A stretch of 64,000 nt of DNA from a virus. Position 1 is the stretch's first letter; every line of letters begins with the position of its first letter. The notes below the pieces were generated by a model, which saw only the letters and a program-made list of their open reading frames with translations, searched no databases and had not been told where the DNA came from. Both the position numbers and the translations under genes were made by a program. Shown here piece by piece: positions 161 through 63,064 of this stretch. Location of the stretch: the IMG/VR virus record IMGVR_UViG_3300036859_000726, positions 1 through 64,000 of that record; one strand, 5' to 3'.

Positions 161-1165
161 TCACGGAATAAGAGTCCTATGGATGTACGCTTCATTAGCG
201 TCCATCAAGTCCTCGGCGGCGAGGACGTCAAGATGATCTGTGAGTACGCGCCATCCACGCCCCTCGCAGTGCCCGTGGAAGCATTTGAAGCTCCCGGTGT
301 AGTCATTTTCGGGCGCAGGTTCTCGAATGTCTGCTCCATCATTCTTGCCGCCTGTATGGTTCGCATACCAAGGGCAAGTAACCTGTCGCCATCCGCCCGC
401 ATTCGGCTCAGCGTTGCGCGGCACAATTCCATACAACTTCGCCAATCGCATATATCGATTGAAGTCTAGGAGTCTTTGCTTGATCGCGTCTGCGTCTCCA
501 GAAACTGGAGGCGGGCGATATTCAAGTCTTGGAATGAGCTCGACCTTGTATGCTCTTGCGAGCTGGTCGATCGTCCAGAGCGGGCCTTCAGCCTTTGTCC
601 AAAGGACACGGAAGTCGCCGCCATACTTCTTCTTGCCGTTGATGAAGCCTGGAACCCGCATCACACGAGTCACGCCCTTCATGCCAGGATCAGCCTCATC
701 CTTGGGGAGCAGAGCCTCATCTACTAACGCATCGAGTAGAGCGTCGATCATAGATTTGCGCGGCTCACCATTCTTGAGCAGGTATATCCACTGCTCATTG
801 CCGGGCGACGTTTCGACGATCCATGTTGGCTCTGCCATTGCTGCGCGCTCTTTCGCAACCTTTGTGCCGACATCGTCGATCATGATGGCGCGGCCAGACT
901 TGAAGAGAACCTTCTGCCTTCTCCATGTATTGTCTGGTGCACGTCCGAATGTGCTAATTGCCACATATCCATTCGTGCGATTTGGGCTGCATGGAAGGTC
1001 GCCGCCAGGTCGCCAAGGTTTTGGTCGCCAAGCGATGTCCTTCGCGTCCGCAGGATCTCCTGGGACGGTTTGCAGGATGAAGCGCTCTTCAGAGGAGCAG
1101 CCGCCAGTAAGAGAGGCGAGCTGCTCGAAGAATCGTAGTGCCGTTTGTTCGTTATTCAATCCCAA
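161..1165 (-). CDS. DNA primase-like protein (AEP / RepB-primase type)
   Basis: Predicted primase-polymerase of the archaeo-eukaryotic (RepB-like) group, making primers for the phage polymerase encoded at 57-60 kb. Visible signs: WIVETSPGNEQWIYLL (a hallmark-like stretch of this group), RVMRVPGFING, and a C-terminal Cys/His segment (CPWYANH, FKCFHGHCEGRGW) like the zinc-binding tails of plasmid and phage primases. At 334 residues it has no helicase domain; the helicase may lie beyond the left edge. There is no ATG near the 5' end: the frame opens with TTG at 1165 or 1159 and the first Met is at about residue 94, so a TTG start is likely. The family call rests on motif reading only. Confidence 0.7.
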   Translation of the reverse strand: MGLNNEQTALRFFEQLASLTGGCSSEERFILQTVPGDPADAKDIAWRPKPWRPGGDLPCSPNRTNGYVAISTFGRAPDNTWRRQKVLFKSGRAIMIDDVGTKVAKERAAMAEPTWIVETSPGNEQWIYLLKNGEPRKSMIDALLDALVDEALLPKDEADPGMKGVTRVMRVPGFINGKKKYGGDFRVLWTKAEGPLWTIDQLARAYKVELIPRLEYRPPPVSGDADAIKQRLLDFNRYMRLAKLYGIVPRNAEPNAGGWRQVTCPWYANHTGGKNDGADIREPAPENDYTGSFKCFHGHCEGRGWRVLTDHLDVLAAEDLMDANEAYIHRTLIP

Positions 1166-10953: not shown

Positions 10954-11148
10954 TGCGGAATAGCTCAGGGGTCAACTGCAGGCGCATCGACGGGTGCGCT
11001 GCTGCAGTGAGCGGGATCGAAAATCGTAGACCAGCTGGCGGGTGCATAGCCTGGGTGCAAACGCTTTGGACGAACCGAGAATCGTGAACGTGAGAGCGCC
11101 AGCCTGATAAGCTGGAGGTCGAGGGTTCGAGTCCTTCTTCCGCTACCA
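10954..11148 (+). tRNA. tRNA-Ile(GAT)-like gene with ~118-nt insertion in the D-loop
   Basis: Acceptor strands GCGGAA (10955-10960) and TTCCGC (11138-11143), T8-A9, D-stem GCTC (10963-10966)/GAGC (11094-11097), anticodon arm CCAGC-CTGATAA-GCTGG (11099-11115, anticodon GAT), T-arm GAGGG-TTCGAGT-CCTTC (11121-11137), then A and encoded CCA (11146-11148). All fits tRNA-Ile except a T:T mismatch at pair 1:72 and a D-loop of 127 nt (10967-11093) instead of 8-11. The insert starts with a 12-bp hairpin (10975-11008: ACTGCAG+GCGCA paired with TGCGC+CTGCAGT). No group I core is visible. It may be a removable intervening sequence or a dead tRNA. Confidence 0.7.
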
Positions 11149-12217: not shown

Positions 12218-12903
12218 TGGCTATCCCACAGTCTGGCCTGAACTACCATAAGCTTCTTGAGCAGGTCAGGGAGTCCTTCGCCAGGCATGAGCGAGAGGTG
12301 CTCTTTCCATCCATGATCAGGATGATAGGTATGGACCCTGCCATGGCGCGTGGAGACTCGTCAACTGTATTCATGTTCCCACGTCATATGGGCAAGACCT
12401 ATATGATGAACCAGCACCTGATGGATGAGCACGTCAGGTACACAATCAGCAACAAGTCGGTGATACAACAGGAGCTACTCGACCTCATGAAGAAGAAACC
12501 AAGCAAAGTAAAGCCCACTCCGATGGTGGCGGTCCTCAAGACTCGCGTAGAGTCGCTTGAAGGCCAGCTGAATGATGTGACCAAGTCAAGGTCTCTCCTC
12601 AGGGAGGAACTTGATGACACGAAGGGTGCGCTGACACGCAGCTGCAAGATGGTTGAGTCTCTGCAGAAAGATCTCGAGAGCGCTCGCTACGAGACTGCTA
12701 ATCTGCGACAGGACATGCAGCGTGCACTCGGCTACATTGACCGTGTGAACGAATGCGAGCCGCCGATTCCTCCTGTGGCAATGCCGCAGACGTACAGCAT
12801 GCCGATGCGCGGCCCTCGTCTGAACGGCGTGTCGCTTCATTCATCTGGTTGCGAGCAGAGCAACTTCGGCCTGAACGACATTCGCGGTCGCAGCCGGTAT
12901 TGA
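12217..12903 (+). CDS. Hypothetical coiled-coil protein
   Basis: 228 residues. STVFMFPRHMGKTYMMNQHL at ~49-68 looks like an ATPase P-loop end (GKT with upstream Arg, as in terminases), but no Walker B follows. Residues ~105-175 form a long coiled coil (RVESLEGQLNDVTKSRSLL). C-terminus is Pro/Ser-rich. Unknown. Confidence 0.7.
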   Translation: MAIPQSGLNYHKLLEQVRESFARHEREVLFPSMIRMIGMDPAMARGDSSTVFMFPRHMGKTYMMNQHLMDEHVRYTISNKSVIQQELLDLMKKKPSKVKPTPMVAVLKTRVESLEGQLNDVTKSRSLLREELDDTKGALTRSCKMVESLQKDLESARYETANLRQDMQRALGYIDRVNECEPPIPPVAMPQTYSMPMRGPRLNGVSLHSSGCEQSNFGLNDIRGRSRY

Positions 12904-16437: not shown

Positions 16438-17385
16438 ATGACAAAGCAACTGATTGTTGGCGGCGCTTCCCTGATCGAACTGGCTATCGCGAACAAGCCA
16501 GTGGGTGGCGCAATGCCCGGCTCAAAGCCGATGGAAGGCGAGTTGATGTCGCGTGAGTCGCGCTATGAAGGCGAACTCGTGGGTATGACCGATGACGAGA
16601 TCAAGGCAAAGGCACCAGCTGTATTCGGCCGGCAGCACTCGTCGCTCAGTGACGCGTACGCATTCGTGAGGACAGGAAACATTGTCAGACAAATGAGGGC
16701 GCTGGGCTATGCGGTTCAATCGGTCAAGCAGACCAATCCGCGCAAGCGTGATGCCTCAACGGTGCGGCATTCGGTCACGATGTGCCTCGCTCGCGACCTG
16801 AGCAAGCTGGGCAAGGAGCTGATCGGAAGGCCCACTGTCACGCTGATCAATAGCAACAACGGGCGCAGCAAGTTCCGCTGGATGCAGGGATACTTCAGGC
16901 TCGCTTGCTCCAACGGCCTGATCATCGGCGAGATCACAGCGTCGGCGGCCCTGATCCATCGGGCTGGCGAGATCGCCCAGCTGAACGAGGTGCTAAAGCA
17001 GATCACCGAACGACAGCAGAAGGCGAATGAGGTCATCGGCCGATGGGGCCAGATCATACTGCCCAAGGCAAGCCAACACCACCTCGCCCTCGAGATGGCC
17101 AAGCTCCGCTTCGGTGTGACAGCGGGCAAGTATGACCTTGATTCCGCGCTGATCGTGCGTCGGCCCGAGGATGAAGGTGATGACCTCTGGACGGTGTTCA
17201 ACCGACTTCAGGAGTCGTATGTACGAGGTGGCGTCTCTTACATGGGCAATGGTGGGGACGTCAGGATGAGCCGCGCAATTGATGGCGTGGTAGCTGACAC
17301 GTCCTTCAACCTCGCAGCCTGGGGTGTTGCCGAGAAGGTGGCCAAAACGGTCACTGGTGAAGGCAACGCTGTGTCGGTGAACTAA
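16438..17385 (+). CDS. DUF932-family protein
   Basis: 315 residues. TLINSNNGRSKFRWMQGYFR and LACSNGLIIGE are characteristic of DUF932 phage/plasmid proteins, and LWTVFNRLQESYVRGG near the C-terminus matches the family's Asn-Leu-Gln-E region. DUF932 members are common in plasmids and phages, often expressed early; no activity is established. GC-rich codon use suggests good expression. Good AAAGGA upstream. Confidence 0.75.
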   Translation: MTKQLIVGGASLIELAIANKPVGGAMPGSKPMEGELMSRESRYEGELVGMTDDEIKAKAPAVFGRQHSSLSDAYAFVRTGNIVRQMRALGYAVQSVKQTNPRKRDASTVRHSVTMCLARDLSKLGKELIGRPTVTLINSNNGRSKFRWMQGYFRLACSNGLIIGEITASAALIHRAGEIAQLNEVLKQITERQQKANEVIGRWGQIILPKASQHHLALEMAKLRFGVTAGKYDLDSALIVRRPEDEGDDLWTVFNRLQESYVRGGVSYMGNGGDVRMSRAIDGVVADTSFNLAAWGVAEKVAKTVTGEGNAVSVN

Positions 17386-17877
17386 GTGGCTGGTGGTACC
17401 ACCGGAATCGAGAAGCTCATGGGCGCGATTGAGGTCATACAAGAAGGCTTGCGCGTCCTGGGCTATCCCGACCGGATCAGCGTTGATGAGGTCCTCGTGC
17501 CTGAGCAATGCGCTACTGTCACAATGGCTGGCGACATCTACCATGTACAAGTGACCAAGCTGGCCAAGGAGCTGACCGACTTGGGCAATGGGTGGAAAGG
17601 CAAGCCTGGTTCAACTGACGGCAATAAGGACGTGCTCGCGCTGTTGGATGAGAAACAGCGTGGTATGCCAATGTTCACCAGGCAGGGATGTGTGCAGAGA
17701 GCCGGTGATCGCGCGTCGAGACCTGATCCTGTCAATCTGCCCAGCTATCGTGACATCGCCAAGATGGGCTCGCTGGTTGGCGTGGGCGGCAAGGCTCTGA
17801 CTGAGATACTTGACGAGCTTGAATGGCTGCGTAGGCAGTATGTATTCATGAGCGGAAGAGAGTATCCAACCAGCTGA
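17386..17877 (+). CDS. Hypothetical protein
   Basis: 163 residues, GTG start directly after the DUF932 stop. N-terminal half helical (LMGAIEVIQEGLRVLGYPDR), with a second segment DIAKMGSLVGVGGKALTEILDELEW. No recognised family; co-transcribed with the DUF932 gene. Last early plus-strand gene before ~1 kb of non-coding DNA. Confidence 0.65.
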   Translation: MAGGTTGIEKLMGAIEVIQEGLRVLGYPDRISVDEVLVPEQCATVTMAGDIYHVQVTKLAKELTDLGNGWKGKPGSTDGNKDVLALLDEKQRGMPMFTRQGCVQRAGDRASRPDPVNLPSYRDIAKMGSLVGVGGKALTEILDELEWLRRQYVFMSGREYPTS

Positions 17878-17906
17878 GCCGCGTGATCCGAAGGCAGTTG
17901 GTGTAG

Positions 17907-17984
17907 ATGCCCTGGTGTGAACTGGGGCATTTGCACATTCAAGAGCTATCAGGAGCGTGGCGGAGCGGGGAGGTCAGCGCTCCT
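17907..17984 (+). other. Two inverted repeats after the early region
   Basis: ATGCCC (17907-17912)/GGGCAT (17925-17930), 12-nt loop, then AGGAGCG (17951-17957)/CGCTCCT (17978-17984). The first could be a weak terminator for the DUF932 operon; neither has a long T-run. Confidence 0.4.
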
Positions 17985-18027
17985 CATAGCTCGACGCTCG
18001 TTCACCAAGGAGGGGCAAGAGTGCTAA

Positions 18028-18316
18028 GAGGGCCGAGTTTAGACTTCATTTGAGAGCGGGGAGAGGTCTGGGAGGGCCGAGATTATGGCGGCAGTTGTCT
18101 CGCTAGGAGGGCTGAGTTTGTGTGGATGGGCGGCGCACGTCTATTGGCCCTCCGTTTCGGCCCTCTTGGGTGCCGCGGGTGTAAGTCCTTGATTTAATAG
18201 CCCTGATCTATGTCGTAGAGGGCCGAGAGGTCGAAGAGGTAGGAGGAAGACTAACCCACGGGCGGCGTAACAGGGGCCGGGCTAAAACCGTCGGCCCTCG
18301 GCCCTCCCCGGCCCTC
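18028..18316. repeat. Eight-copy 10-bp repeat array GAGGGCCGAG, both orientations
   Basis: Plus orientation: 18028-18037, 18072-18081, 18107-18116 (GAGGGCTGAG) and 18218-18227. Minus orientation (CTCGGCCCTC): 18156-18165, 18290-18299, 18297-18306 and 18307-18316, the last three nearly head to tail; three of these four have one mismatch. Further half matches occur (18146-18152). GAGCGGGGA..GGTC is also repeated, at 17963 and 18054. Iteron-like layout in a gene-free region between early and late genes: candidate replication origin, packaging site or regulator-binding array. Confidence 0.7.
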
Positions 18317-18586
18317 GGGTCAAAGCCACGTTGAACGGCTCGCAACCATCATCTTTCGTCGAAACAACCTCAGCCATAGACCATATTATACCCTGAACGC
18401 ACTGACGAACTTGCGGCATTTCCCGGGCAAGTGTGACCAGATGGCTCCGCAATCCCGGTGTGCGTTACGATTCAATTTGAGGCATTCAGCGACCATCCTC
18501 GATCATCGTTCGACGACCGACGAGCTTTGAGGTGCGCGCATTGGGCCACCATGGGCGGGCGCGGCCCTAGCTAGGCCATAGGCTTA
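18317..18586. other. Non-coding stretch, nothing specific seen
   Basis: No open frame with a credible start and no tRNA or strong hairpin. An AT-richer patch with ATATTATA at 18384-18391 is the only local feature; it would suit a melting region beside the repeat array, but that is speculation. Confidence 0.4.
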
Positions 18587-18677
18587 AAACGCTGTATAAC
18601 GCTGCCTCAGGTCGCCTCAGCAGGAAACGGCGCTACCTGGTACCCTAGGAAGGGGTAGGCTATCAGTTGCTAATAGG
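18587..18677 (+). repeat. 91-nt intergenic element, copy B
   Basis: Same length as copy A at 10097-10187 and about 67% identical without gaps. Here CTACC (18633-18637) can pair with GGTAG (18654-18658) within the conserved part. A further GCTGACTCAGCAG follows at 18724-18736, and GGCTAGGCGAAAGG / GGCTAGGCGATAGG recur at 18689 and 18744, so the region to 18760 is built of related short motifs. Confidence 0.6.
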
Positions 18678-18794
18678 TCGCCGGGCGCGGCTAGGCGAAA
18701 GGCGCCATAGTGCCCACGTATAGGCTGACTCAGCAGGGTTTATGGCTAGGCGATAGGGTAGTAGCGGGCGCAACGGCCCTGCTATTAAATGACG

Positions 18795-18807
18795 CGTTAA
18801 GTTAAAT
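18795..18807 (+). repeat. Left 13-bp inverted repeat of the 18.8-19.2 kb cassette
   Basis: CGTTAAGTTAAAT, the exact reverse complement of 19227-19239. The pair brackets the terminator, gene and promoter of the minus-strand gene 18858-19148. Confidence 0.55.
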
Positions 18808-18818
18808 GAGCGCGCACT

Positions 18819-18844
18819 AAAAAGGGGCGCCACGGGCACGCCCC
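18819..18844 (-). terminator. Rho-independent terminator of the minus-strand gene
   Basis: On the minus strand GGGGCG, 9-nt loop, CGCCCC (18824-18844), then TTTTT (18819-18823), 13 bases past the stop codon. Confidence 0.85.
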
Positions 18845-18857
18845 AAATCAGTTCGTT

Positions 18858-19148
18858 TTACTTAACGGGTGCGCCCTGATAAGTAAACTCATGGCCCTCA
18901 ATAACCAGCTTGGTACCGACGGCCGCACCCTTCAGTACGGTACGCACCTGGCTACCTTTGTAGCCTGCCAGACCTGCGGCGTCCAGCGCCTTGCGCGGGC
19001 TATCATAGGTCACGCCCTTATACGCCACCGTGTAGCGCGTAACCTGTCGCTTGGGCTTGAGGGTAATGACGGTTGGGGTAGCGTCAACGGGCGCGGCTTC
19101 AGGGGCCACGGACTCAGGGGCGGACCGGCCAGCTTTACGATTTTTCAT
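18858..19148 (-). CDS. Small 'SPRKALDAAGL' protein (family member C)
   Basis: 96 residues: basic/Ala-Pro-rich arm (1-33), then the same domain as the genes at 3955 and 4630 (YDSPRKALDAAGLAGYKG, VGTKLVIEG). It is the only minus-strand gene between 2.7 and 52.4 kb, with its own -10, palindrome and terminator, and is flanked by 13-bp inverted repeats. GC-rich codon use like member B. Its isolated antisense position suggests independent control or acquisition as a cassette. Function unknown. Confidence 0.85.
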   Translation of the reverse strand: MKNRKAGRSAPESVAPEAAPVDATPTVITLKPKRQVTRYTVAYKGVTYDSPRKALDAAGLAGYKGSQVRTVLKGAAVGTKLVIEGHEFTYQGAPVK

Positions 19149-19658: not shown

Positions 19659-19973
19659 ATGTCTAGACGACTCATAATCCAAGTTTCCACCTTCAGAGAA
19701 TATGCTGATGTGAACCAGAGACCTAGTTCGATTGATACGCTCACACAGGACGAAGTAGCGCAGCTGGCATATGCCGCCGACGTGACTCCTGATGAAGTGC
19801 GGGCTTTCGAAGCGGCAGTCAAGGACAAGATGATCAGGTGCGGCTTCTCACGAATTGAGCGCACTGAGCTGTACCTCAAGGTGCAGCGGGCTGTTCGAGA
19901 CTTTCAGAAGGAGATGGCCGTTCAAGCGGCTGTCGCGGCATTTCAGAGGAGCCAGGCTCCAGGAGCAGGTTAA
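19659..19973 (+). CDS. Small helical protein at the start of the late genes
   Basis: 104 residues from ATG 19659, or 87 from GTG 19710 if the promoter at 19627 is real. Contains LTQDEVAQLAYAADVTPDEV, which resembles helix-turn-helix spacing, then an amphipathic helix to the end. Lies two genes before terminase, so a packaging or regulatory role is possible. Stop overlaps the next ATG. Confidence 0.65.
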   Translation: MSRRLIIQVSTFREYADVNQRPSSIDTLTQDEVAQLAYAADVTPDEVRAFEAAVKDKMIRCGFSRIERTELYLKVQRAVRDFQKEMAVQAAVAAFQRSQAPGAG

Positions 19974-20332
19974 TGGCCCGACCAGGTGGTCCAGCCAGAC
20001 GAGCAGGCGGCGCCATGAGAGCTGCTGCCAAGGCAAACCTGCCGAACTCGTCAGCCAAAGAGATTTCAGAAGTCCTCCAGGCTGCTTCGCTCCGCATCCT
20101 TCCGCAAGTCGCAGGATGGCTTGAGGCTGGTGCAGAGGCAGATCCAATTCGTGCGGCATCGGTCGCTCTCCAACTCGCAGAGTTCCATGTGCCAAAGCTA
20201 TCCCGGTCAGAGGTTGGCTTGGACGATCCCACTCGACAGGCGTTGGACGTAGAGTCTCGACGCGCATTGCTTGCACAGGTACTTTCATCCATCTCGCCGG
20301 CACCTACACCAACCGCAGCACAGAAGGCTTAA
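19973..20332 (+). CDS. Putative small terminase subunit
   Basis: 119 residues. Basic, Gly/Arg-rich N-terminus (ARPGGPARRAGGAMRAAAKA) followed by helices of the type AASLRILPQVAGWLEAGAEAD and AASVALQLAEFHVPKL, a pattern often seen in small DNA-packaging proteins. Called mainly on location upstream of the large terminase; the gene before or after it could be the true small subunit instead. Confidence 0.45.
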   Translation: MARPGGPARRAGGAMRAAAKANLPNSSAKEISEVLQAASLRILPQVAGWLEAGAEADPIRAASVALQLAEFHVPKLSRSEVGLDDPTRQALDVESRRALLAQVLSSISPAPTPTAAQKA

Positions 20333-21175: not shown

Positions 21176-22720
21176 ATGTCGGCCAGTGAAGACGAGATCC
21201 GGCAGACACTCGAGCAGCTCGACGAGTATGAACTCGCACTGCTCGAGGCGCGCATTGCATGGAAGCGCACAGCACGCGTCAAGCAGCTCCCACCAGACCA
21301 GTGGCCAGTAGACTTCCTCTTCAATGGAGTCAAAGGGCCGCGCGACTGGCGCGTCTGGGGAATAAGATCTGGTCGTGGCTTCGGGAAAACACGCAGTGCC
21401 GCTGAGTGGCTCTGGCCCGAAGCATGCAACGATCCAGGCTCCTACAGCTTTGTCATTGCACCGACATTCTCTGACGTACAACACACATGCTTTGAGGGCG
21501 ACTCCGGGCTGCTGCGATGCATTCCTGAAGAGCTGATCCTCGACTACAACAAGACGAACACGATCGCTCTGGTGTGGACCGGTGAGGAGCCGTCACAGAT
21601 CCGCGGCTTTGCCGCAGACAGCCCAGAGCGTCTTCGTGGTCCAAACAGCCACAGGGTCTGGGCCGACGAGGTCGCATCATGGACCTATCCGGAAGACACA
21701 TGGTCGAATATGCAATTCGGATTGCGCCTCGGTCGTGGACCAAAGATCTGTTGGACAGGAACACTCAAGCCCAAAGCATTCGTGCGTCGTCTGGTTGAAG
21801 ACAAGTCGCCGATGACGTATGTTGTGCAGGGATCGACGGATGACAACGTCGAGAACCTTGCACCTGAGTTCTACGAGAACATCGCGAAGTATCGCGGAAC
21901 TGCGTTGGGCCGCCAGGAGCTTGAGGGCGAGCTGCTCAATCCAGAAGAAGCTGGCATCGTCAAGCGATCGCAGTTCCAGATCTGGCCGATCGGAAAGCGC
22001 ATCCCTCAGTTCGACTTCATCGTCTACTCTCTTGACACAGCATACACAGAGAAGACCTTCGACAAGAAGGAGATGAAGGCCGATCCTACAGCATGTTCCG
22101 TGTGGGGTCTGTTCAGGCAGGAAGAGCGCGGCATCTACACGCAGAACGTCATGCTGCTCGACTCATGGGACGACCACCTTGGTATTCCGCAGCTGATTGC
22201 GAAGGTGATCAAGGAGAAGTCGTTCCATTATGGTGCCTCGACGCGCATGGATGGATACGGGACGATCCTCCAACCTTCACGCGCACTACCAGGCACAGGA
22301 CGCAAGTCCGACATAATCATCATCGAGGAGAAGGGATCAGGAATCAGCCTCCGCCAGGCATTGGCTGCATCCCAGATCCTAACCCACCCTTATAACCCGA
22401 AGCGTGCAGACAAACTGGCGCGCTTGCACGCTGTGACGCCCATGTTCGCGCATGGTCGTGTGTATGTGCCGGAGTCTGAAGCCAACAGAGGACACCCGAA
22501 GAGCTGGGCCGATCCGCTGATCACTCAGGTATGTTCGTACGTTGGTCCTGGATCGACGGACCATGACGACTATGTTGACTCCACTTCCCAGGCGCTGCGA
22601 TACTTCATGGATAACCTGCGAATGGACTTCAGCCCGAAGCAGATCAAGAGCTACACTGATCGTGAACGCGACGACAAGCTTGAGGAAGTCAAGAACAGAA
22701 GCAGCAATCCATATGGTTGA
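21176..22720 (+). CDS. terL: Terminase large subunit (DNA-packaging ATPase/nuclease)
   Basis: 514 residues. Walker A SGRGFGKT at ~65-72, Walker B RVWADE at ~160-165, and a C-terminal RNase H-like nuclease with Asp in VYSLDTAY (~287) and late Asp residues in HDDYVDSTSQAL. Length and motif order fit the Terminase_6-type large subunits. It pumps DNA into the prohead through the portal encoded next but one. The type of ends (cos or headful) cannot be read. Confidence 0.95.
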   Translation: MSASEDEIRQTLEQLDEYELALLEARIAWKRTARVKQLPPDQWPVDFLFNGVKGPRDWRVWGIRSGRGFGKTRSAAEWLWPEACNDPGSYSFVIAPTFSDVQHTCFEGDSGLLRCIPEELILDYNKTNTIALVWTGEEPSQIRGFAADSPERLRGPNSHRVWADEVASWTYPEDTWSNMQFGLRLGRGPKICWTGTLKPKAFVRRLVEDKSPMTYVVQGSTDDNVENLAPEFYENIAKYRGTALGRQELEGELLNPEEAGIVKRSQFQIWPIGKRIPQFDFIVYSLDTAYTEKTFDKKEMKADPTACSVWGLFRQEERGIYTQNVMLLDSWDDHLGIPQLIAKVIKEKSFHYGASTRMDGYGTILQPSRALPGTGRKSDIIIIEEKGSGISLRQALAASQILTHPYNPKRADKLARLHAVTPMFAHGRVYVPESEANRGHPKSWADPLITQVCSYVGPGSTDHDDYVDSTSQALRYFMDNLRMDFSPKQIKSYTDRERDDKLEEVKNRSSNPYG

Positions 22721-57050: not shown

Positions 57051-59832
57051 ATACGATCTCCGGGCGCGTCAGACAGCGCATCTTGTCGATTGATATCATG
57101 GAGAAGCCTTTGAGCCAGCGACCCCTGATCAGCACCCAGTCCTTGTTATCCAGTAAAGTGTCTGCTGCAAACTTGCCCATCTTCTCCCAATCTCGAGGTT
57201 TGATTCGAGCGAGGACTGGCTGGGATACGGAGTCGTCGACGATGAACATATCCAGGAAGAGTGACTGAGCGTCCTTGTAAAGTTTGTTACCTCGACGCTG
57301 GAAGCGGACCGCCTCGTTCTCGTCTCGTCGCTCGCGCCGCACGATCTTGGCGATGATACACGCATCTTCTCTGTCCTCCAACTGACCGATCAGCTTGACC
57401 TTTCCTCGTATGCCGTGCATAGCAGGATTGTCATATAAGTCACCCCACAGAGTTCGGCCCTCGGTAAGATCCTTAAACTTGACTGTGGAAGCAAGCAGCT
57501 TCGCTTTTGCCTCCTTGGTTAGCGTGCCAGCCTTGCGCTTCGCCAGGTACTGCCCTGCCTTCGCCGGTCCGATGCCGACGATGTTCATGTACCCACCATA
57601 TAGCACACCGTCCTGCACACTCCAATTCGCCTCGCTCTTATCCGGATCAAATGGGATGTAGTCAATGCCTTCGTCGCGCAACTCGCGTAGCATCTCCACG
57701 ACCTGTTCATCGCCTTTGTTCGATCGGAGCAGAGCTGCAGCGAACTTCATTGGATAGTGAGCCTTCACATAGGCCGTCCAGAATGTCACGATTCCGTATG
57801 AAACACTGTGCGACGCATTGAACGCCCAGGATCCCATATGAACCATCACACGCCACATTTCTACAGCGTCCTCTGCGGACACCCCGTGCTTGGCTGAACC
57901 GACGACGAACTTGTCGCGCATCTGGTTGAAGAACTCAACTCCGCGGCGACCAGACATTGACTTGCGAATCAATGAGACCTCTGCCCAGGTGAAGTCACCG
58001 ATCTCGCGACAGACGCGCATGATGCTCTCTTGGAACACCATAACACCCTGTGTGGCGGCGAGGATGTCCTTCAGCAGCGGATGGCAAGTGACTGGTTCAG
58101 AGCCATTCTTGCGCTTGATGTACGAATTGGTGCCGCCGCCCGCCAGTGGTCCAGGCCTCGCTAACGCGCCGAGATGGTTGATCTCCAAGAAGGAGGTCAC
58201 ATGAACCTGGGTCGCCACTCGGCGGGCAGCCGCACCTTCGAGCTGAAACAGACCGCTGAACTTCTTGTCATTGATGACATCAAAAGCAGCCTGGTCGTGC
58301 AGCTTCAAGTCATAGAACTCTTGGTTCGTCAGCGCTTCGGCGTCTTCCAGCACACCCAGCGTGCGGAGTCCAAGCGCGTCGATCTTCAACAGTCCCAGAT
58401 ACTCGGCATCCTTCTTGTCGACGCAAGCGACGCCTTCGTCGGTCACGGTGCAGAAGTCATGTATTGGCTGGTTGTTCACAATGACACCAGCGGCGTGCAC
58501 TGATGTTGTGAACGGGGTCTGCTCTGCCTTTCCTGCGAGCGCCATTTCAGGATAGTCCGCCGCGAACTTCTTGCCCTCGGCAGTCTGAATCATCGTGTCT
58601 TCAAGCGAGTGTCCGTAGCGCGAGTCGCCGGAGCTGTACTCGATGAGTTGATTGATCAGGTTGAATGTTGTACCCTTTGGCACACCCATTCGTTTGCCGC
58701 ATTCAAGCAGCACCGATTTGGGTTGCATCGATACAACGTTACCGACTCTAGCGACCTGTGCCTCTCCATACTTCTTCTTGAGGTAGTCGAACACGAGCTC
58801 TCGCTTAACATCCGAGAGATCGACGTCGATATCTGGCCAGTCGCTACGATTGACGTCGATAAACCTTTCGAAGAGGAGGTCGTGCTCAAGAGGATCCACT
58901 TCTGTGATTTGAAGCAGATAACAAACGAGAGATCCGGCGGAGGACCCGCGTCCTGGGCCAACGAGCATATGTTGCTTCGCAAATCGAACCATGTCTCCGA
59001 CAACGAGGAAGTAGGATTGATATCCTTTCTCGTAGATGAGCTCACGCTCTCTCTTGAGGCGTTGTTCATGCTTCTCGTCCCAGACAATATGGCCCTTACC
59101 GACTCGATAACGGATCCCTTCTGCGATCTCGGCGTCAAGATCTCCTTCAGTTTGGACCAGGGCAGCTTTCGCAAGTTTGACTCCTTGGAGGCGTTCAGCA
59201 GCCTCGTATGTACCCTTGATCGCCTTCTCAAGGATGTCGTCTGGGATATGGTTCATCACACCACGCAGCTCGTCGAGAGTCAGGATGTGAAGCGGGGTCG
59301 TGCGTTTCTGATCGACGAGCGCGAGATACACATCCCAGTCCGTTGCTCGCGCATAGGCGTTGTCACTGGTCAGCACTAGCGGCTTGCCTGTCCTCGTGTG
59401 AAGCTCAAGCTGACGCTTCGCAGCGATCAGTGAGCGAGGATTAAGGTCGATGTAGTCAAAACACATCGGATCGTCAAGGAGGGCGCCAGAGAATCGTATG
59501 GCACAATTGCCCAGCTCCCAGGTGTCCTTCAACTTGATCTCTGCATAGTGCTTGCTGGTCCAGTTGTAGAATTTTCGAATGTCCGTAGCCAGAGCCCATG
59601 CACCAGCGGCATTTCCGTCTGCCATCTTGACGGAGAATTCTAGGCCAAAGGCGGGTGCGACCTTTGTCTCTTTGAGAGCTTTCTCAAAGCGAACATGGCC
59701 CCAAGTGCCGGTGTCAACGATCCCTGCGATCGGCGTCTCCAGATCCTGAAGCCGCGAGGCGACGTCGTTGATCGGCGCGAATGCTCGCTTGATCGAGAAG
59801 CTGGTACGGACTCTGAGCTGCGGGAATGTCAT
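57043..59832 (-). CDS. DNA polymerase III alpha-like (family C) replicative polymerase
   Basis: 929 residues versus ~1160 in E. coli DnaE. Has GPGRGSSAGS (~292-301), PDIDVD (~333-338) with the catalytic Asp residues, and FTTSVHAAGVIVN, GLLKIDALGLRTL, VMVFQESIM, FNASHSVSYGIVTFW of the palm/fingers. The N-terminal PHP region is degenerate: QLRVRTSFS replaces the metal-binding HLRVHSDYS-type motif (both His lost), so proofreading probably comes from the separate DnaQ-like gene at 60676. The C-terminus is shortened, with a remnant OB-like part (GKVKLIGQLEDREDACIIAK). Confidence 0.9.
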   Translation of the reverse strand: MTFPQLRVRTSFSIKRAFAPINDVASRLQDLETPIAGIVDTGTWGHVRFEKALKETKVAPAFGLEFSVKMADGNAAGAWALATDIRKFYNWTSKHYAEIKLKDTWELGNCAIRFSGALLDDPMCFDYIDLNPRSLIAAKRQLELHTRTGKPLVLTSDNAYARATDWDVYLALVDQKRTTPLHILTLDELRGVMNHIPDDILEKAIKGTYEAAERLQGVKLAKAALVQTEGDLDAEIAEGIRYRVGKGHIVWDEKHEQRLKRERELIYEKGYQSYFLVVGDMVRFAKQHMLVGPGRGSSAGSLVCYLLQITEVDPLEHDLLFERFIDVNRSDWPDIDVDLSDVKRELVFDYLKKKYGEAQVARVGNVVSMQPKSVLLECGKRMGVPKGTTFNLINQLIEYSSGDSRYGHSLEDTMIQTAEGKKFAADYPEMALAGKAEQTPFTTSVHAAGVIVNNQPIHDFCTVTDEGVACVDKKDAEYLGLLKIDALGLRTLGVLEDAEALTNQEFYDLKLHDQAAFDVINDKKFSGLFQLEGAAARRVATQVHVTSFLEINHLGALARPGPLAGGGTNSYIKRKNGSEPVTCHPLLKDILAATQGVMVFQESIMRVCREIGDFTWAEVSLIRKSMSGRRGVEFFNQMRDKFVVGSAKHGVSAEDAVEMWRVMVHMGSWAFNASHSVSYGIVTFWTAYVKAHYPMKFAAALLRSNKGDEQVVEMLRELRDEGIDYIPFDPDKSEANWSVQDGVLYGGYMNIVGIGPAKAGQYLAKRKAGTLTKEAKAKLLASTVKFKDLTEGRTLWGDLYDNPAMHGIRGKVKLIGQLEDREDACIIAKIVRRERRDENEAVRFQRRGNKLYKDAQSLFLDMFIVDDSVSQPVLARIKPRDWEKMGKFAADTLLDNKDWVLIRGRWLKGFSMISIDKMRCLTRPEIVFG

Positions 59833-60248
59833 CGTGGCATATTCCTGAGTGCTTCCATCATAGAGAACTGAAACTGGCTCATAGTACTGCTCATCATATT
59901 GTCGAACGCACCAGTCACTGCGCGAACAATGCCTTGGTCAAGACGATCTTTCAAAATCTTGAATACATCATCCTTGTGCACATCAAGCCAGTTCTTGACC
60001 ATCTCTTTGACTTGCTCTTCAAGAAGCTCCTTCATGAGAGAGACGATCGGAATCGGACCTTCCTCCTTGCGCTCGTTGTAACTGCCTGGGTTGGTGATCT
60101 TGACGGAAGGCTTGAAGAATGCAGCCTGCACTGCGACATCAACGATTTTCTTGAGCTCCTCGTCAGTCATGAGATCGCCCATCGACTCTCTGATCCGAGC
60201 GAACATCCTGCTCTGGAAGTCCGTCGCAGCCTGCACTTCGGTGCCCAT
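59829..60248 (-). CDS. Hypothetical helical protein
   Basis: 139 residues, overlapping neighbours by 1-4 bases. Helical throughout (MTDEELKKIVDVAVQAAFF, SLMKELLEEQVKEMVKNWLD), ending Met-rich (MMSSTMSQFQFSMMEALRN). Between polymerase and MazG-like genes; could be a polymerase partner, unproven. Confidence 0.7.
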   Translation of the reverse strand: MGTEVQAATDFQSRMFARIRESMGDLMTDEELKKIVDVAVQAAFFKPSVKITNPGSYNERKEEGPIPIVSLMKELLEEQVKEMVKNWLDVHKDDVFKILKDRLDQGIVRAVTGAFDNMMSSTMSQFQFSMMEALRNMPR

Positions 60249-60679
60249 CAGAATGACTTCCCGCCAGGAGCGAGGCGAGCCTCCGGCTTATGGTCAGCAC
60301 GACCGATGTTGTAGATCAGCTTCTCGCGCATTGCTCCGGAGAGATCATATCCGGCGGCGCCAGCATAGTCAAAGATGCGAATCAGGGCGTCGGCGAGTTC
60401 AACCTCTGCCATCTTGCGGTGCGGCAGGTGGGTGTCCATCACACCCTTGCGCTCCCCCTCCATCGACTCGGCGACCTCGCTAACGATGAGCATTAAAAGC
60501 TCACCCTTGTTGCGATCCAGCGGCTCGCCTTCCTTGAGGCCGTGCCACCATTGGTAGTTGTTCAGATGGATGAACTTTGCCATCTCATTCAGACCATTGA
60601 TTGCAGCCTCATTATCTGAGACGCGATTGATCTGGGACGCTGCGCTGTGATCGCCGAAGTCTGATACGACTGTTCTCAT
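60248..60679 (-). CDS. MazG-like / all-alpha NTP pyrophosphohydrolase
   Basis: 143 residues. LLMLIVSEVAESMEGERKG (ExxE type) and KMAEVELADALIRIFDYAG (ExxD type) are the metal-binding helices of this fold; KGVMDTHLPHRK lies between. Would cleave an NTP or dNTP; with polymerase and exonuclease genes beside it, control of the dNTP pool is likely. Confidence 0.75.
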   Translation of the reverse strand: MRTVVSDFGDHSAASQINRVSDNEAAINGLNEMAKFIHLNNYQWWHGLKEGEPLDRNKGELLMLIVSEVAESMEGERKGVMDTHLPHRKMAEVELADALIRIFDYAGAAGYDLSGAMREKLIYNIGRADHKPEARLAPGGKSF

Positions 60680-61332
60680 GATATGCTTGTCCTTACCTTG
60701 TTGTCGTCGGAGATAGGGTCGAAGCCGCGGATGACGACTTCTTCCTCGAATCCTGTTGGAAATCTGAATTCTGCAGGCCGAGTCGTTGGCGGCACCAGAC
60801 TTATCAGGTTGTGGTGTATAACGATCTCGGCTAGAGCTCTGACGTCATCAAGAGCTCTGTGGGTCTGTTTATATGGCTTGCCCATCGTGTGCTCATACAG
60901 CTCGATCAGCCGCATGCGGCGACCCCATATCGGTTCGAATTCCTGGACGGTGCACATATTGTGGCGCGGCCAAGGGAAGTCCTTGATGGCTCCGGCGATG
61001 CGCAGCTCGTTGCTCAGCAGGGCGTGATCGAACGGTTGATTGTGGGCTATCAAACAGTCTGCCTGAGAGAGGAATTCCTTGACTGCTGGAATATATGCCG
61101 CAAAAGATGGTGCGCTTTTCAGATCCTCGTTCTTCAAGCCTGTTATCCTGGTGATCTCAGGAGTGATCTGCTGATCCGGATGGCATAAGAACACAAGAGA
61201 GTCAAGCTCCTTGCCTGTGTGGTCAATAAGAACTGCAGCGAACTCAATGATTCGCGGTTGCAGCTTCGGCTTCGCATGTGGATGTAGCGTCAACCCAGTC
61301 GTTTCCGTATCAAACACAGCGCCGATGGTCAT
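60676..61332 (-). CDS. DnaQ-like 3'-5' exonuclease
   Basis: 218 residues. Exo I FDTETTGL (D8, E10), Exo II HNQPFDHALL, Exo III HRALDDVRAL: complete DEDDh set. Probably the proofreading partner of the family C polymerase encoded ~0.8 kb downstream, whose own PHP site looks inactive. Confidence 0.9.
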   Translation of the reverse strand: MTIGAVFDTETTGLTLHPHAKPKLQPRIIEFAAVLIDHTGKELDSLVFLCHPDQQITPEITRITGLKNEDLKSAPSFAAYIPAVKEFLSQADCLIAHNQPFDHALLSNELRIAGAIKDFPWPRHNMCTVQEFEPIWGRRMRLIELYEHTMGKPYKQTHRALDDVRALAEIVIHHNLISLVPPTTRPAEFRFPTGFEEEVVIRGFDPISDDNKVRTSIS

Positions 61333-61514
61333 GATCTATCTTCCTCAATGGGTGGCTCCGCAGCCGTCTTGTCGAGTCGTTTGTCGTACACAGGGTTGTA
61401 GTGAGGGCCGGGCGCGCGACAAGTGCAACGTTCGCCACATGACACGAAGCAGAACTTCGTGCGAGTCCAGTAGCCTTCTTCGTTGTAATAGCCATCGCGC
61501 CTTCCGAACGTCAT
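61329..61514 (-). CDS. Small Cys-rich hypothetical protein
   Basis: 61 residues, ATGA overlap on both sides. GYYNEEGYWTRTKFCFVSCG then ERCTCRAPGP: four Cys in about 15 residues, probable zinc site. Unknown. Confidence 0.65.
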   Translation of the reverse strand: MTFGRRDGYYNEEGYWTRTKFCFVSCGERCTCRAPGPHYNPVYDKRLDKTAAEPPIEEDRS

Positions 61515-61681
61515 TCTGTGAATACCTCTGGCTTAATCCGCAGAACCCAATGTCCATCAGAGCGTTGTATCCACTCTCCTGCATTGATGCTGAAGCCATT
61601 GTGATCTTCAACCTCTATGAGGCCAGGACGATCATGGTCTGGAGGACCATCAAATACGACATCTATGAACGTCCTTGCCAT
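61511..61681 (-). CDS. 56-residue hypothetical protein
   Basis: ATG at 61681 lies 1 base past the SDR stop and the stop overlaps the next ATG (ATGA). Beta-rich, acidic (RTFIDVVFDGPPDHD, GEWIQRSDGHWVLRIKPE). Coupled position supports it; unknown. Confidence 0.6.
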   Translation of the reverse strand: MARTFIDVVFDGPPDHDRPGLIEVEDHNGFSINAGEWIQRSDGHWVLRIKPEVFTE

Positions 61682-61682
61682 G

Positions 61683-62357
61683 CTACACTCCGTATGGGAT
61701 GTCGCATCCCGTCAGATACTTATGATGCGCTTTCGTGGTCAACAGATACGCTATCAGCCCTGCAACCTGGTCGGGCGGCGTTTCCTCGCCTATAAGGGAT
61801 GCAGCGAGCTGACGATTTGCAACTGTCGTGGCGTCCCAGCCGCGGAGATCTGATGCCTGCCGATCAACGGTATCAGACATTCTCGTGTCCTTCAGCCTGT
61901 TCGGGCTGATTGAGAACACGGTCACATCCGGAGCCCACTCTCGAGCCATCACGCGTGTAAGCATCAAGGCCGCTGACTTGCTGGAGCAATATGCAGCACT
62001 TGTCCTCATCGGCATATCAGCAGCTGAACTCACGATGTTCAGGATCGTGCCCTTGCTTGAGCGGAGGTCGTGAAGAAGATGCTGAGACATCTTCAGAATG
62101 CCCTTCACATTCACATCCATAACCTGGTCCCACTCCTTGGATGACACATTCTCGAGCCAGTTCAGCCTAACGATCCCTGCGCAGTTGATGAGCACATCAA
62201 TTCCGCCATCTCTGAACTCACGATTGACGCTCGGATTGCGAACGTCCCCTCCGTGGGCTATGTCGAACGAAAGGACGGAATGCCCCGACCCGACAAGATG
62301 CTGGGCTATGCAAGCTCCAAGGCCGCTCGACGATCCTGTGACCACGATGCGACTCAC
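61683..62357 (-). CDS. Short-chain dehydrogenase/reductase (SDR)
   Basis: 224 residues. TGSSSGLGACIA (~7-18, NAD(P)-binding), NCAGIV (~58), catalytic Ser ~110 and YCSSK (Tyr 123, Lys 127) are the classical SDR set. The acidic Asp after beta-2 (SFDIAHGGD) suggests NAD(H) rather than NADP(H). A metabolic enzyme is unusual in a replication operon; it is ATGA-coupled to the class II aldolase gene, so both probably act on one substrate path. Substrate unknown. Confidence 0.85.
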   Translation of the reverse strand: MSRIVVTGSSSGLGACIAQHLVGSGHSVLSFDIAHGGDVRNPSVNREFRDGGIDVLINCAGIVRLNWLENVSSKEWDQVMDVNVKGILKMSQHLLHDLRSSKGTILNIVSSAADMPMRTSAAYCSSKSAALMLTRVMAREWAPDVTVFSISPNRLKDTRMSDTVDRQASDLRGWDATTVANRQLAASLIGEETPPDQVAGLIAYLLTTKAHHKYLTGCDIPYGV

Positions 62358-63064
62358 AGAGCCTCTCCTGATCGTTTGATGGATTCATAGAGCGCATCAC
62401 GCTCCGCAGGCCAGGAGTGAGCGCCAAACGGGCGGCCACCCCGGATCCATTCCGCATGGGTAGTGTCAACCATTTTCTGGTTGAACACGCAGATGTCCAT
62501 TGGAATGATGGACTCCTTGATGCAGGCGTCTTGAAGGTTGATCAAGATTTCGAACGCCTCTCCAGGCGTGCGACCCCCGACCATCGCTCCGTGGCCCTCC
62601 ATCAACACAGCATATCGCATGTGCCCGAAGGCTTCGACCAGGCCATCATAGCGATTGAGTCCCTTGTATGGCATGAAACCAAGGAACTGCTCTGTGAAGA
62701 GCGCAGCGCCTTGATGAACCTGCCTGAGAATCCCAATCGCTGCGGCGGCGATGGTGTCCGGCGTATGCACATGAAGGATACAGTTGAACTCAGGCCGAGA
62801 CTTGTAGATGTCGCGATGGATCCAGAATTGCGCGTTCGGCTTGATGCCGGCGCTGGTGGCGTCCACCCCATCCTCGTCTACCACAACGGAGTCAAGACTC
62901 GTCGTTGCCCAGAACGGACGCGGCCTTGCGATGTTGATAAGCAGATGCTTGTTCTTCACGAGCATCGGCGACCGCATTGAACAGTGCAGGAACACTGAGT
63001 CGTCAAGACCCCGTGCCGCCATCGCTCGCATCATGAGCGCGAATTCAAGGTCTAACGCCATCAT
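62354..63064 (-). CDS. Class II aldolase/adducin-family protein
   Basis: 236 residues (ATG 63064 or 63061; GGAGAAGGA upstream). Zinc ligands in ILHVHTPD (His 98, His 100) and EGHGAMVGGRTPGEAF (His ~157), plus WIHRDIYKSRPEFN, mark the fuculose-aldolase/adducin fold. These enzymes cleave or form sugar-phosphate C-C bonds, or act as epimerases or decarboxylases. With the SDR beside it, a small sugar- or nucleotide-modifying path is possible. Confidence 0.8.
   Translation of the reverse strand: MMALDLEFALMMRAMAARGLDDSVFLHCSMRSPMLVKNKHLLINIARPRPFWATTSLDSVVVDEDGVDATSAGIKPNAQFWIHRDIYKSRPEFNCILHVHTPDTIAAAAIGILRQVHQGAALFTEQFLGFMPYKGLNRYDGLVEAFGHMRYAVLMEGHGAMVGGRTPGEAFEILINLQDACIKESIIPMDICVFNQKMVDTTHAEWIRGGRPFGAHSWPAERDALYESIKRSGEAL

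Follow-up and report, generated by a model that had tools for sequence, protein, structure and literature searches.

A repeat array upstream of the terminase genes as a candidate replication origin in a group of phages

A cluster of short, nearly identical repeats in both orientations is located in a gene-free region of the phage DNA analyzed here. We propose that this array is probably a cluster of initiator-binding boxes of the phage replication origin. In related phages, arrays with other motifs occur at the same address upstream of the large terminase gene (TerL), and in seven of these phages the motif matches the C-terminal domain of a primase-helicase.

Clustered repeats in a gene-free region

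The analyzed DNA (the window) covers positions 1-64,000 of a viral record of 67,549 bp. The ends of this record overlap by 186 bp with one mismatch, and thus it behaves like a near-complete circular map. A sequence-only reading had reported eight copies of a 10-mer at positions 18028-18316, four per strand and four of them exact. A motif scan of the window reproduced these eight copies of GAGGGCCGAG (at most one mismatch) and revealed a weak ninth site. The sites found in the scan are as follows.

18028..18316: whole array of GAGGGCCGAG sites, both orientations
18028..18037, plus: site 1, exact
18072..18081, plus: site 2, exact
18107..18116, plus: site 3, one mismatch
18143..18152, minus: ninth site, weak, two mismatches
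18156..18165, minus: site 4, one mismatch
18218..18227, plus: site 5, exact
18290..18299, minus: site 6, one mismatch; overlaps site 7 (7-bp period)
18297..18306, minus: site 7, exact
18307..18316, minus: site 8, one mismatch

Sites 6 and 7 start 7 bp apart and have a terminal GAG in common, and site 8 starts 10 bp later, confirming the nearly head-to-tail layout of the three minus copies at the right end. A genome-wide motif count, which had been proposed as a check, showed that the 10-mer is not present at similar density elsewhere: no exact copy was found outside the array in the whole 67,549-bp genome, and copies with one mismatch were detected only at 12808, 57453, and 61403. One 8-mer occurs seven times within 300 bp, compared to a maximum of five and usually three in shuffled genomes (100 order-2 shuffles in 1-kb blocks), and no other cluster of this kind in the window is as strong as the array. 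When two mismatches were allowed, the motif was not enriched in the whole window (84 sites observed, 76 expected). The array is genuine, and its unusual feature is the clustering of GAGGGCCGAG, not the window-wide abundance of the motif.

The earlier description of approximately 980 bp without genes also held, since 17878-18857 contains only spurious ORFs, all shorter than 60 aa. The surrounding features and the replication and terminase genes of this phage are listed below.

161..1165, minus: RepB-type DNA primase
16438..17385, plus: DUF932 protein, second gene upstream of the array
17386..17877, plus: orphan protein of 163 aa, gene immediately upstream of the array (KilAC (ANT) is the only match, below threshold)
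17878..18857: gene-free region, 980 bp, between the early plus-strand genes and the terminase side
17943..17992: imperfect inverted repeat beside the array, 15-nt arms and 20-nt loop (fold modestly beats shuffles, z -1.9)
18858..19148, minus: 96-aa ORF on the far side of the gene-free region
19973..20332, plus: small terminase (TerS) candidate, 119 aa (blastp link to TerS family)
21176..22720, plus: TerL, the anchor for finding relatives
66031-67527 of the genome, minus: DUF5906 helicase, beyond the window; neighbor of the primase across the end of the record

The TerS candidate of the window starts 1.7 kb downstream of the array. A terminator-like hairpin (18824-18844) follows the 96-aa minus-strand ORF. 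To the right of the array, at 18570-18760, there is a second, weaker direct-repeat family, GCTAGGCNAWAGG, with three copies in plus orientation only.

The array is GC-rich and has no strong AT-rich stretch inside; an AT content of 0.56 is found just to the right, at 18350. Cumulative GC skew, another check that had been suggested, did not point to the array: its minimum in the window lies approximately 16 kb away. GC skew was also inconsistent at the arrays of the relatives and was therefore dropped as an origin marker. The RNA structure of the array barely beats shuffles (z -1.4), and no Rfam family was found at this position. Elsewhere in the window, 11087-11145 gives a weak Rfam tRNA match (31 bits, threshold 29) that was not called by ARAGORN.

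The late module resembles that of Caulobacter phage RW (TerL 46% identical), and the polymerase is of the DNA polymerase III alpha type, with its closest matches in Luteibacter phage Pluto and in a Pseudomonas phage group with genomes of ~66 kb. The replication genes differ in ancestry from the Caulobacter-phage-like late module, and the genome is a mosaic. The polymerase III-type replication module was absent from the 18 related records searched (a search without a positive control). In the phage collection, no DNA-level relative of the array region and no close DNA relative of this phage were found.

Arrays at a conserved address in related phages

Relatives were fetched from viral contigs via TerL and reduced to 182 non-redundant loci. 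The strict scan required an 8-mer at least four times within 400 bp, either in both orientations or palindromic, and left out clusters in which every spacing was a multiple of three. Strict clusters were present in 51 of 543 one-kb bins located 0-5 kb upstream of TerL and in 3 of 1137 bins in the 10 kb downstream. This corresponds to a ~36-fold enrichment per kb in the 182 loci, which shows a conserved address and not many independent origins, because related phages are not independent observations. A sensitive scan (background ~2% per kb) detected an array in 50 of the 103 loci having at least 3 kb of upstream sequence; in the rest of this set, about half, no array was detectable. In the larger contigs with an array, this was usually the strongest cluster, and the motif was nearly confined to it. 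TerS candidates were found in 49 of the 50 array loci, with the TerS start at a median of 225 bp downstream of the array. Approximately half of the copies point each way, and the array regions of the relatives are AT-rich on average.

The motifs are diverse. The large clade has GTGTTGCA/ATGCTGCA/GTGCTGCA, and elsewhere TACGGCGTAC, TAGGGTCA, CCTAACAA, CACCGTGG, GTACGTAC, AGGGGCCA, CGTATC, and others were found. The suggestion that a palindromic core suits a dimeric protein does not generalize, since CGTATC, TAGGGTCA, and GTGTTGCA are non-palindromic. According to our reading of the scan output, L081 and L086 have a palindromic motif differing mainly by transitions. In L308 and L200, homologous DNA is present on both sides of the arrays, and the motifs are different. 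The array region of L236 and L240 contains a hairpin, GGCCTCTAGAACTACGTTCTAGGCC, in which pairing is kept in L240 despite changes on both sides.

Some regions were set aside by eye. What first seemed to be a gap without genes in MW202545 looks like coding DNA that was left unannotated. Tandem coding repeats in L107, L111 (5744-6119), L129, and L136 were likewise excluded from the arrays, although the repeats of the last two, at -7 to -8 kb, satisfy the automatic filter. Caulobacter phage RW has no clear array, and its weak AAGCCT cluster straddles the end of a terminal repeat.

In seven relatives, the motif matches the C-terminal domain of a primase-helicase

We compared motif similarity with the similarity of 35 gene families encoded near the arrays. 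Once TerL relatedness was accounted for, the best agreement was found for the replicative primase-helicase. Its partial rank correlation with the motif is 0.66 (n = 11), compared to 0.34 for the next family and 0.08 for TerS. The protein contains Toprim_3 or PriCT_2 together with AAA_25, and its helicase part matches RSF1010 RepA in the PDB. In seven relatives, three C-terminal types correspond to three motifs with zero exceptions, a match that rests on few independent events, given three types. Two of these relatives, L244 and L245, were outside the scan that first revealed the link.

First C-terminal type (L229, L247): motif AGGGGCCA
Second C-terminal type (L233, L232, L244, L245): motif CGTATC
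Third C-terminal type (L113): motif TAGGGTCA

In L229, L232, L233, L244, L245, and L247, the 3' end of the primase-helicase gene abuts the array. The L229 and L233 proteins are almost identical over approximately the first 550 residues and then diverge. At the DNA level, the identity of the two loci is mostly 93% or higher as far as position -1300; the sequences diverge from about -1300 to -750 and then regain 97-99% identity through most of TerS. The divergent block covers the array and the coding sequence for the final ~100 aa of the primase-helicase. Between these two phages, the C-terminal domain and the array have been swapped as a single ~550-bp cassette.

The C-terminal domains are homologous, and their putative recognition helix reads AERTLRN in L229, AERTVRN in L113, and SEAYAQQ in L233 and L232. 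L229 and L113, which are similar in this helix, are also similar in the motif (tAGGGGCCA and TAGGGTCA, respectively). In a structural model of modest confidence (pLDDT 62), the domain shows the topology of a winged helix. Fold searches returned mostly winged-helix proteins with weak scores (best Z 5.3), and these matches are therefore not proof of the fold.

L207 encodes, at -1749..-1135 relative to TerL, a separate small protein with the primase-helicase C-terminal domain, 24 bp from the array. The last 78 residues of this protein are 72% identical to the C-terminus of the phage's own primase-helicase. Its middle part is cysteine-rich and zinc-finger-like. In the large clade, the primase-helicase gene is located several kb off the array, and phages of the same motif class have a C-terminus KRDxRRQ... 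in common; this is consistent with the domain/motif link and has no discriminating power.

Where the array directly borders the gene of the C-terminal domain, as in the clearest cases, a single recombination event carries both, and linkage could produce the match without binding. The limitation of the swap to the C-terminal domain and the array, with TerS unaffected, and the helix likeness that tracks motif likeness argue for matched parts, without being proof.

Origin model and comparison with known systems

In the proposed mechanism, a phage replication protein would bind the repeats via a small sequence-specific DNA-binding domain. The initiator would assemble at the array, the helicase would be loaded, and the primase would start synthesis. 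The primase-helicase is the candidate initiator in the relatives; for the window, the DUF5906 helicase acting with the RepB-type primase is the more likely choice. If the protein domain and the array are matched, they would change or be exchanged together, so that each lineage would have its own motif at the same address. We infer that binding to the array takes place and that replication starts there. The sequence-only reading had suggested origin iterons or a multi-site regulator array. The origin part of this suggestion is backed in the relatives by the initiator C-terminal domain matching the motif. The term iteron does not fit: classical iterons are direct repeats, plasmid-type ones being regularly spaced, whereas the window has four plus and four minus copies with irregular spacing.

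The array of the window may function likewise, though with another initiator; in its case, the origin interpretation is drawn from analogous architecture and position. The DUF5906 helicase and the 163-aa protein beside the array are candidate partners; no relatives of either were found in viral contigs. The nearest solved structures of the DUF5906 helicase carry the name "Primase" (6k9c, 6k9e), and the protein is probably of a general type related to P4 alpha. Its structure prediction from the single sequence was uninformative (pLDDT 37). Several observations count against an origin in the window: no AAA_25 primase-helicase was found in its genome by tblastn, the candidate initiator (DUF5906 helicase) is encoded ~18 kb from the array, the array is GC-rich, and GC skew does not mark it.

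The P4 origin repeats are decamers in both orientations. Origin repeats of P4 are bound by the C-terminal winged helix of the alpha primase-helicase (PMC4234260). The likeness to P4 ori1/crr and alpha thus lies in the initiator type, a primase-helicase with a C-terminal winged helix acting on repeats. In contrast to P4, the phages studied here have larger genomes and an array near the terminase genes, the helicase part of the relatives is AAA_25/RepA-like, and the motifs vary from phage to phage. In SaPI Rep, origin specificity is controlled by the C-terminus. PICI origins are located immediately 3' of rep and contain iterons, and Pri-Rep occurs in allelic variants (PMC6092414). The arrays abutting the 3' end of the primase-helicase gene in six relatives resemble this arrangement. 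However, in PICIs an AT-rich region lies between two sets of iterons, whereas here there is one irregular, mixed-orientation cluster, and the window has neither an obvious AT-rich core nor an adjacent initiator. At RSF1010 oriV, iterons are recognized, and a RepA-type helicase and a primase are at work (PMC4234260). Its likeness to the present phages consists in the RepB-type primase of the window and the RepA-like helicase of the relatives. RSF1010 uses three proteins and direct-repeat iterons, whereas the relatives fuse primase, helicase, and the candidate DNA-binding domain.

We conclude that the arrays are probably parts of origins that work like those of P4 and the satellites, but are rewritten unusually fast. 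We tentatively put forward, as a possibility short of an even chance, that in this large, mostly uncultured phage group the origin address is fixed and the recognition sequence is repeatedly rewritten by swapping a cassette of initiator winged helix and repeat array. Specificity would then outpace the neighboring genes, perhaps dodging parasitism or interference by satellites or co-infecting relatives. If the origin interpretation is correct, it would provide a candidate origin of replication for a phage group that is widespread and for which we found none described, and would account for a hypervariable non-coding site at a conserved address. It would also provide natural matched domain/site pairs from which to read how an initiator winged helix picks its sequence, and would make testable why origin specificity changes so fast.

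Alternative explanations for the array

Given its location at the border of early and late genes, before the terminase operon, the array could be a multi-site region for a phage regulator of the early-to-late transcription switch. Random site orientation suits a regulator, and in the large clade the genes upstream of the array are on the minus strand and the TerS operon beyond it is on the plus strand. In addition, a promoter-like element (CTTGYC-N17-TATCT) and a leader between array and TerS are conserved regardless of the array motif. However, the distance between array and TerS ranges from about zero to 5 kb, and in L189 a whole gene is inserted between them, which argues against dependence on the late promoter. 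The sites are also not scattered over other promoters, as dispersed operators or stoperators would be; the exact sites of the window are in the array only. Moreover, the motif tracks the C-terminal domain of the replication protein and not any regulator found. A conserved YdaS/Cro-like protein was rejected as the motif determinant, because its recognition helix is constant while the motifs vary. We consider a transcription switch rather unlikely, and less likely than an origin. A protein combining an HTH with sigma region 4, encoded beside the array of L311, was also dismissed, being present in three loci only. L316 (2010-2588, minus) encodes a protein in which a Cro-like HTH (sub-threshold) is joined to sigma-70 region 4, at a distance of ~1 kb from the array of L311.

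Short repeats near the small-terminase gene are a feature of both P1 pac and lambda cosB. The short median distance of the array upstream of TerS and the Sf6-like TerS of the clade would suit a packaging-initiation (pac) site read by the small terminase. In addition, the deposited record of phage RW (MK929790.1), a relative, has an exact 2940-bp direct terminal repeat (1-2940, 59423-62362), which includes TerS and has its two ends 0.9 and 3.8 kb upstream of TerL. A site read by TerS, as in pac or cosB, should co-vary with TerS, but TerS had no advantage over TerL in tracking motif similarity (partial rank correlations of 0.15 and 0.18). L311, L251, L257, and L194 have the same motif and nearly unrelated TerS proteins, whereas the pairs L183/L196 and L308/L200 have similar TerS proteins and different motifs. 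In L229 and L233, with nearly identical TerS DNA over most of its length, the motifs are unrelated. The co-variation tests and this pair rule out TerS as the motif determinant, and the array motif thus differs from P1 pac and lambda cosB in its lack of TerS dependence. That the motif does not follow TerS weighs against a TerS-read packaging site, an explanation that we regard as very unlikely. A functionless repeat expansion or low-complexity accident is even more improbable. Tandem coding repeats do occur in some relatives, but the arrays are non-coding, irregularly spaced, in both orientations, and at the same address in many phages; their copies stay nearly identical within an array while the motif changes between lineages.

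In L236, L240, L230, L239, L191, L308, L200, L135, and others, CTTGYC-N17-TATCT is followed by a leader with CTGGTAGTCCTGCC..GCGGAGCA..GCAG just before TerS. This conserved leader is possibly an unrecognized leader RNA.
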